A stretch of 64,000 bases of DNA, taken from the NCBI GenBank assembly GCA_016192135.1, contig JACPUR010000001.1, positions 248,001-312,000 of the forward strand, given 5' to 3'. This DNA comes from Candidatus Tectomicrobia bacterium (GTDB lineage Bacteria > UBA8248). Shown piece by piece: positions 18,206-29,844 of the stretch (positions are counted from its first letter, which is position 1; every line of letters starts with the position of its first letter). A program made the translations under genes and the position numbers. The notes below the pieces were generated by a model that searched no databases, was not told the DNA's origin, and saw only the letters and a program-made list of their open reading frames with translations.

Positions 18206-18352
18206 CACCTCCCCCCATCGAGCCTTCGGCCCTCCCTCCCCCCAAGGGGGGCGGGATCTTCCTTCCTCCCTCAGGGGGGGAGGTGCTGGGGGGGTGGTTT
18301 TGGGTAGACAACTCCTTTCCCCTTCAGGGGGGGGAGGTATTGGGGGGGTGGT
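18206..18352. repeat. Family D C/G-run repeat, one full and one partial unit
   Basis: The unit begins CACCTCCCCCCATCGAGCC and continues through CCCCCCAAGGGGGGCGGGAT to GGGAGGTGCTGGGGGGGTGG (about 18206-18298). A shortened second unit with GGGGAGGTATTGGGGGGGTGG follows. The same element, inverted and interrupted, flanks the DUF3800 gene at 28684-28740 and 29487-29525. The 18124-18570 stretch holds this repeat and the terminator-like hairpin at 18355; no gene is seen. Confidence 0.85.
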
Positions 18353-18354
18353 CG

Positions 18355-18395
18355 AAAAAAAGCGCCCCCGCGCGGGGGCGCCTTGTGTTTTTTTG
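18355..18395. terminator. Bidirectional Rho-independent terminator-like hairpin
   Basis: The perfect 20-base palindrome GCGCCCCCGCGCGGGGGCGC (18362-18381) is flanked by an A run on the left and a T run on the right (18386-18394). The layout suits termination in both directions. Confidence 0.75.
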
Positions 18396-28683: not shown

Positions 28684-28740
28684 TAAAAAACCACCCCCCC
28701 AGCACCTCCCCCCCTGATGGGGGAAGGAAAAATCCGCCCC
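28684..28740. repeat. Family D repeat, left half (split by an insertion)
   Basis: AAACCACCCCCCCAGCACCT and the following CCCCCCCTGA..GGGGGAAGG..ATCCGCCCC match the reverse complement of the 18241-18300 unit almost base for base, then stop abruptly at 28740. The rest of the unit resumes at 29487. Confidence 0.85.
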
Positions 28741-29481
28741 GGTGGTTATCCCCTCTAGCCCGCTGTGATGAGTATTCGGCGGCGACAACAGGCGGTGCAT
28801 GGCCGTGCTCCACGCTTACTTTGATGAAAGTGGAACGAATGCTGGCGCTGTAGTTTTGAGTGTTGCTGCGTATTTTGGAACAGAAGACCAGTGGAAAAGA
28901 TTCGAGAGCAAATGGTGCGGTCCGCTTGGTAGTGGTGAGTTTCACGCCAAAGATTGTTCGCACTTGTTCTCACCACTGAGTGCTGCAATGGAAGTGAGCG
29001 AGATCACTGGTGTGCTTTGTACGATTGCGACAGAAGATTTCCGCAATTGTGCCAATGCGCAATTCAAATCAACCTTGGGGAACGCATACGCCGTTTGCAC
29101 GTTTGCTTGTGCGATGGCGGTATGCGATGTCGCACGGGAAAAAGGGATAGGCAAAGTTTCTTTTGTACTGGAGCATGGCCAACCTAACCTCGTCTTTGTC
29201 AAGACAGTCCTGGAGTCAATGCTTGATGTAGAGAATACATGCGTAGCTGCCGTGGAGTCAGCGGGAAAAAGTCAATTTGCCAAGCTTCATCCCGCAGATT
29301 TTACTTCACACGTTGCCAGTTCATACGACAGGGGTTGGCTGCAGCATTTGGTGGAACGTTGCAATTTAAAGCATTGCCACATTACGAGTGATACCTTGGG
29401 GGATGTTTCTCAGCAGGTAAAAACATTGATTAACCATGCACGAGATGCGAGGCGTGCCGAACGCAGGAATAGATAACCGCC
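28741..29481. mobile_element. Low-GC cassette with short terminal inverted repeats, carrying a DUF3800 gene
   Basis: The ends read GGTGGTTATC (28741-28750) and GATAACCGCC (29472-29481), an inverted repeat with one mismatch in ten. The cassette interrupts a family D repeat whose two halves are at 28684-28740 and 29487-29525, with C runs on both sides that could be a short target duplication. Base composition is far lower in GC than the surroundings. There is no transposase, so it would be a non-autonomous or gene-sized insertion. Confidence 0.55.
28799..29476 (+). CDS. DUF3800-family protein, horizontally acquired
   Basis: 225 residues, markedly AT-richer than its neighbours. The N-terminal LHAYFDESGTNAG (about 4-16) and FHAKDCS near 47-53 are the conserved DUF3800 motifs, with acidic residues suited to an RNase H-like metal site. 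Further acidic and His residues appear around GWLQHLVERCNLKHC. DUF3800 proteins are common in mobile and defence-related islands, and a nuclease role is suspected for the family but not shown here. The gene has only a weak ribosome site, and its stop lies within the right terminal inverted repeat of the cassette. Confidence 0.8.
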   Translation: MAVLHAYFDESGTNAGAVVLSVAAYFGTEDQWKRFESKWCGPLGSGEFHAKDCSHLFSPLSAAMEVSEITGVLCTIATEDFRNCANAQFKSTLGNAYAVCTFACAMAVCDVAREKGIGKVSFVLEHGQPNLVFVKTVLESMLDVENTCVAAVESAGKSQFAKLHPADFTSHVASSYDRGWLQHLVERCNLKHCHITSDTLGDVSQQVKTLINHARDARRAERRNR

Positions 29482-29486
29482 TCCGT

Positions 29487-29525
29487 CCCCCTTCACGGGG
29501 GGAGGGAGCATCGAAGATACGATGG
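29487..29525. repeat. Family D repeat, right half
   Basis: CCCCCTTCACGGGGGGAGGG followed by AGCATCGAAG and ACGATGGGGG continues the unit broken off at 28740; compare the inverse of 18206-18245. Confidence 0.75.
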
Positions 29526-29538
29526 GGGATGATGAAGC

Positions 29539-29700
29539 CTACCCCATTTCCCCCAGCGCGTGCTGGAGGATGGCGGTGAGGGCGATGGGGGCGGTGTCGG
29601 CCCGAAGCACGCGCGGGCCCAGGTCCACCGCGACGAAGCCCGCCGCGCGCGCCGCCTGGACCTCCTCCGGCGTCAGGTCCCCCTCCAGCCGGGTGTGCCC
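29539..29700 (-). pseudogene. Remnant of rsmE (16S rRNA m3U1498 methyltransferase), C-terminus only
   Basis: The minus strand encodes DLTPEEVQAARAAGF, VDLGPRVLRADTAPIALTA and ILQHALGEMG before a TAG at 29539-29541. This is the C-terminal signature of RsmE, where the LGPRILRTETA element forms part of the SAM-binding knot. Upstream the frame loses similarity: the expected IGPEGG motif is replaced by RGGHTRLEG, and only about 140 bases remain before prmA, far too few for the missing 190 residues. prmA-rsmE is a usual gene order, so a deletion removed most of rsmE. The stretch 29701-29844 shows no gene. Confidence 0.72.
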
Positions 29701-29844
29701 CCCTCGATCCAGCCGGGCCCGGCGCGGAAGAGGCGGGGGCGGCCGGGGCTCATGTCGTTTCTTCCCTTTCCCCCTCGGAAAGCCAACCCCCCCTTTCCCC
29801 CCCCTTGGTAAGGGGGGGCCGTTCTTCGAGGAGAACGAGAGGGC

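Follow-up and report, generated by a model that had tools for sequence, protein, structure and literature searches.

Mobile insertion cassettes (MICs) have been defined as elements in which a cargo gene lies between two terminal inverted repeats, with a target duplication and no transposase gene (PMC3913671). Described examples include MIC231 of Bacillus cereus, mic-qnrD and mic-qnrS2, and the ISsaga paper (PMC3129680) is a further source for the definition. The earliest MICs to be described were those of IS231 in Bacillus, and others with quinolone resistance genes followed. The IS1595 family was reportedly defined by Siguier, Gagnevin and Chandler in 2009, as cited in PMC3129680 and PMC12561309. 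Members of this family usually generate 8-bp duplications (PMC8101967).

Here we describe a 741-bp insert in a window of 64,000 nucleotides from Candidatus Tectomicrobia bacterium (the window being the whole stretch of DNA that was analysed). The explanation we favor, to which we give a probability of about three in four, is that the insert is a transposase-less MIC with IS1595-type ends that was moved in trans and carries a DUF3800-like gene. With two inverted repeats, a target duplication and no transposase gene inside, the cassette falls under the published MIC definition (PMC3913671; ISsaga, PMC3129680). MIC231, mic-qnrD and mic-qnrS2 share this layout of cargo between terminal repeats, target duplication and missing transposase gene; however, their ends are those of IS231 (IS4-type) or are unassigned, whereas the cassette has putative IS1595-type ends, an 8-bp duplication and DUF3800-like cargo. 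If this explanation is correct, the cassette extends MICs to another transposase family and shows a specific way in which DUF3800 genes could be transferred from one genome to another.

The interrupted family D repeat and its empty counterpart

The palindromic repeats of family D are intergenic; they are strewn over the source genome, in tandem in places, and one is also present at the orthologous site of the congener G001. Family D sites were located in the window at 18206-18360 and 28684-29529, and elsewhere in the source genome (G000) at C19:60666-60933, C39:14646, C18:8956 and C34:39828-39974. The intact unit at 18206-18298 served as the in-window comparison for the interrupted copy, whose features are as follows:

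28684..28740 (+): family D repeat, left part; matched at 88-91% by intact genomic copies, ending with the left duplication
28733..28740 (+): target site duplication, left copy TCCGCCCC; single copy in the G001 empty site
28741..29481 (+): candidate mobile insertion cassette, 741 bp, 50% GC; limits from the empty orthologous site in G001 and from the terminal repeats and duplication
28741..28750 (+): left terminal inverted repeat GGTGGTTATC, from repeat search
28799..29476 (+): divergent DUF3800-like gene P0001, 225 aa; YFDESG...FHAKD...FVLEHG...PAD
29472..29481 (-): right terminal inverted repeat GGCGGTTATC (read inward), which holds the gene's stop codon
29482..29489 (+): target site duplication, right copy TCCGTCCC, with one C-to-T change
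29482..29529 (+): family D repeat, right part; 78-79% to other copies and 90% over 50 bp to the G001 empty site

The initial annotation of this DNA had proposed that an inverted family D unit was split here by a one-gene cassette. Both halves of the unit were present as it described, the left half ending ...AAAAATCCGCCCC at 28740 and the right half opening TCCGTCCCCCTTCACGGGGGG at 29482. The break had been placed between 28740 and 29487; an interruption does lie there, but the exact insert is 28741-29481, flanked by an 8-bp duplication.

A search with the upstream gene against 18 genomes of the phylum located the orthologous locus in the same-genus genome G001 (C65, locus L050; 84% identity), and with it the empty site for which the annotation had recommended looking. 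In this locus an uninterrupted family D unit, which reads GGGGGAATCCGCCCCCCTTCACGGGGGG, lies at about 1224-1323 of L050 between a DUF1194 gene and prmA; the DUF1194 and prmA family identities were confirmed for the window's genes. The empty site has a single octamer TCCGCCCC, whereas the window has two copies of it, the second reading TCCGTCCC (7/8 equal). Joining the flanks to the empty site therefore gives a duplication of 8 bp with one later change and an element that spans 28741-29481, and the G001 site fits no alternative base assignment of the junctions. The target duplication shows that the element was gained in the source genome, not lost in G001, and the one mismatch between its copies indicates that the insertion was not very recent. 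The locus is an insertion of foreign DNA into an intergenic family D palindrome, with ends that are exact to the base.

The source genome has many family D repeats, a good number of them partial, which would allow the two halves to be independent partial copies with an ordinary horizontally acquired gene between them, an outcome that the annotation had itself foreseen as counting against an insertion. However, the congener has a single orthologous copy that is uninterrupted, and the halves in the window overlap by exactly 8 bp. The G001 empty site rules this explanation out, and we give it next to no weight.

The insert opens with GGTGGTTATC and closes, in forward reading, with GATAACCGCC. Repeat search placed a 10-bp inverted pair exactly at the insert junctions, 9/10 paired, as expected from the 10-base terminal repeats in the initial annotation; beyond these the two ends are unlike each other. 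Under equal base frequencies, the chance of an inverted repeat of at least 9/10 at fixed junctions is 3e-5 and that of a duplication of at least 7/8 is 4e-4, and a comparable combination of repeat and duplication was present in 3/1000 random window intervals when 100 bp of freedom was allowed on each side. The foreign composition that had been claimed for the insert was also evident (50% GC in 69% GC DNA): GC was 0.498 for the insert versus 0.695 for the window, 0.484 for the cassette gene and 0.46 for its third codon positions. No sigma-70 promoter and no terminator were found inside the cassette. Together, the uninterrupted site in G001, the duplicated target and the terminal repeats at exact junctions supported the insertion of a one-gene cassette, to which our analysis added the 8-bp duplication and the probable IS1595 type of the ends, neither of which had been noted before.

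A 72-residue fragment, the end of a reading frame, lies between the cassette and prmA (29539-29757, minus strand). Its match to the RNA methyltransferase domain PF04452 (RsmE-like; 45 bits) is confined to the last 41 positions at the C-terminal end of the domain, and it has no similar stretch in the G001 locus. This fragment looks like a gene remnant.

The cargo gene

P0001 is the only plausible gene in the cassette; it starts 58 bp inside the left end, and its TAA stop codon falls within the right terminal repeat. The protein had no Pfam, NCBIfam, PHROGs or PADLOC match, and the DUF3800 model PF12686 of Pfam gave none up to E = 1. L149, a viral-contig protein with the same motifs as P0001, matches PF12686 at 41.5 bits, and P0001 scores 42 bits against L149, compared with a maximum of 23 bits over 500 shuffled versions. 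At the level of sequence, these two scores identify P0001 as a remote DUF3800 homologue through an intermediate protein. The initial annotation had stated that the insert carries only a DUF3800 gene; the single gene was confirmed, but its family label is indirect, by way of L149 and with no library match. P0001 resembles DUF3800 (PF12686) proteins in its YFDESG, FH..D and E/D motifs, and differs from them in being missed by the Pfam model and, unlike the DUF3800 of PMC10910872, in having no Cas12 link.

No close relative of P0001 was found in 84,980 species genomes, searched with exact 8-residue words, nor in plasmids, phages, viral contigs or the 18 genomes of the phylum. A weak relative with the same motifs is present on Bradyrhizobium plasmids. 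The annotation had held that occurrences of the gene without these ends would speak against a cassette; two remote relatives (21-24% identity) lack such ends, and are too distant to bear on the matter. In addition, the cassette contained no Rfam DUF3800 RNA motif.

The Pfam entry for DUF3800 lists its function as unknown. Structure prediction of P0001 from the single sequence, with few relatives to draw on, gave a mean pLDDT of 35.6. An AlphaFold2 model of another DUF3800 domain has an RNase H nuclease fold (PMC10910872), and by analogy P0001 is probably an RNase H-fold nuclease.

An RNase H-type fold is also that of DDE transposases, and this raises the question of whether the DUF3800-like protein could itself be a transposase, or a transposition partner, acting on IS1595-type ends, in which case the 741 bp would form a minimal autonomous element of a new type. 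A single gene takes up the element, opening near the left end and reaching its stop codon in the right end, and the element is close in size to the shorter insertion sequences, for example ISApl4 (712 bp). However, the cassette is present as a single copy in the source genome and is absent from the 17 other genomes of the phylum, no convincing terminal repeats with a duplication were found at the 14 other DUF3800 loci of the phylum or around the two closest relatives of P0001, and the ends resemble those of IS1595, a family with its own transposase. We consider an autonomous element of this kind very improbable.

Comparison of the cassette ends with IS1595-family elements

Four complete IS1595-family elements, with a transposase, ends and duplications of 7-8/8, were delimited on public plasmids of other bacteria (L098, L105, L099 and L109), and the ends of an element from the same-family genome G004 (L078) were set beside them:

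L098 (Geminicoccaceae): ends GGGGATTATCCCCTTGAC; duplication GCACGCAA
L105 (Sulfitobacter): ends GGGGGGTATCCCCTTGAC; duplication ACTCGAAT
L099 (Roseomonas): ends GGGGATTATGTATTTGAC; duplication TATCTTTA
L109 (Pseudosulfitobacter): ends GGCGATTGTATACTTGAC; duplication 7/8
L078 (G004): ends GGGGATTATATAC; duplication 7/8

The transposase locus of the congener G001 (L073) has a probable left end, GGCGATTACCCAGTTGAC, recognized by eye at the usual distance upstream of the transposase start, in an element that is cut by the contig end. Another candidate for this end, GGCGGTAACTC, was dropped in its favor on account of that distance.

The IS1595-type likeness of the cassette's left end runs on as GGTGGTTATCCCCT to 28754, and 12/14 positions of this stretch equal the ends of L098 and L105; one IS1595 end is GGGGATTATCCCCT. 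The motif GG.G.TTAT is common to both cassette ends and to most of the IS1595 ends compared. In two respects the cassette departs from the IS1595 ends examined: it has G at position 5, which in those ends is usually A, and it lacks their inner TTGAC. In a profile built from 11 IS1595 ends, with the cassette excluded, both cassette ends ranked in the top 0.02% of window positions. About 20 of the 128,000 window positions equal the cassette ends in profile score. The profile is too unselective to find such elements alone, but the cassette junctions were fixed by the empty site, independently of the profile. The 58 bp that separate the gene start from the left end compare with 48-69 bp for the transposases of the four IS1595 elements. 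Based on end similarity, duplication length and gene placement, we assign the cassette ends to the IS1595 type with moderate confidence.

IS1595 transporter elements resemble the cassette in the GG.G.TTAT motif, the 8-bp duplication, a gene that begins at a like distance (48-69 bp) inside the left end and the carriage of extra genes, but they encode an IS1595 transposase and the cassette does not.

Relatives of ISL3, IS6, IS256 and IS66 are examples of elements that also make 8-bp duplications, and a MIC moved by such a family, with a coincidental likeness to IS1595 ends, has to be weighed. The shortness of the cassette ends, the number of window positions that match the profile equally well and the failure to find a helper in the source genome would all be consistent with this. 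We nevertheless regard it as unlikely, given the 12/14 agreement of the left end with two IS1595 elements, the rank of both ends in the profile and the shared gene placement.

Candidate helpers and the origin of the cassette

No PF12762 / DDE_Tnp_IS1595 transposase was found in the cassette or in the source genome, a draft about 97% (96.8%) complete. Multi-copy elements are often lost from draft genomes. IS1595-family transposases were present in 8/18 genomes of the phylum, one of which is the same-genus congener. The initial annotation had advised searching the source genome for other insertions with these ends and for a transposase with matching ends; neither turned up there, but the congener offers a plausible family, of IS1595 type.

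Searches for further copies covered several collections. In the source genome 38 sites fit GGNGRTTATC. Apart from the cassette ends, just one pair of these faces inward at a spacing of a few kb (C17:313731/316336), and it was rejected, as it lies in apparently coding DNA and its adjoining 8 bases do not match. The combination of a left end with YFDESG 45-75 bp after it was matched 16 times in all genome contigs, none with a matching right end and duplication, and more than 100 times in viral contigs, where the 80 matches examined likewise had no right end with a duplication. The cassette is known from a single copy.

On the grounds given for the ends, the enzyme that mobilized the cassette would belong to the IS1595 family, and we infer that mobilization took place in trans. 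In the mechanism we propose, a full-length IS1595-family element would supply a DDE transposase in trans, and this transposase would bind and cut both terminal repeats of the cassette. Staggered cuts in the C-rich stretch of the intergenic palindrome would then lead to insertion of the cassette and to the 8-bp duplication. The base-exact pair of full and empty sites makes the question of the helper testable.

A similar structure could remain if a longer IS1595 transporter element had inserted here and an internal deletion had then removed its transposase. Related IS1595 elements do carry a transposase together with cargo, and the short distance from the cargo gene to either end is what a deletion would produce. 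However, the gene is intact, starts where a transposase normally starts and ends in the right terminal repeat, and no transposase fragment was detected; decay in place is, in our view, distinctly unlikely. As the origin of the cassette, derivation by deletion from an IS1595 element with cargo is plausible and, with one copy, is hard to separate from a MIC, which may itself arise by just such a transposase deletion.

MICs are a known kind of element. IS1595 and MICs appear together in four open-access papers; in one of these, PMC3129680, no link between the two was found. No mention of DUF3800 together with IS1595 was found in the open-access literature, and the combination of IS1595-type ends with DUF3800-like cargo was not found in the open-access literature searched.

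The related IS1595-family elements differ in the genes they carry. The element in G004 (L078 326-3201, contig C94) is 2.9 kb long and has 24-bp imperfect ends; its transposase is divided between two frames, and the additional genes include an aspartyl protease-like one (PF13975). Of the two from alphaproteobacterial plasmids, one (L098 2417-4943) carries a Cas2/VapD-like gene that scores just under the Pfam cut-off, and the other (L099 2415-5018) carries a PIN-domain gene. Small nuclease-type genes may be a favored cargo of the IS1595 family, and DUF3800 cargo, if nuclease-like, would be in keeping with this.
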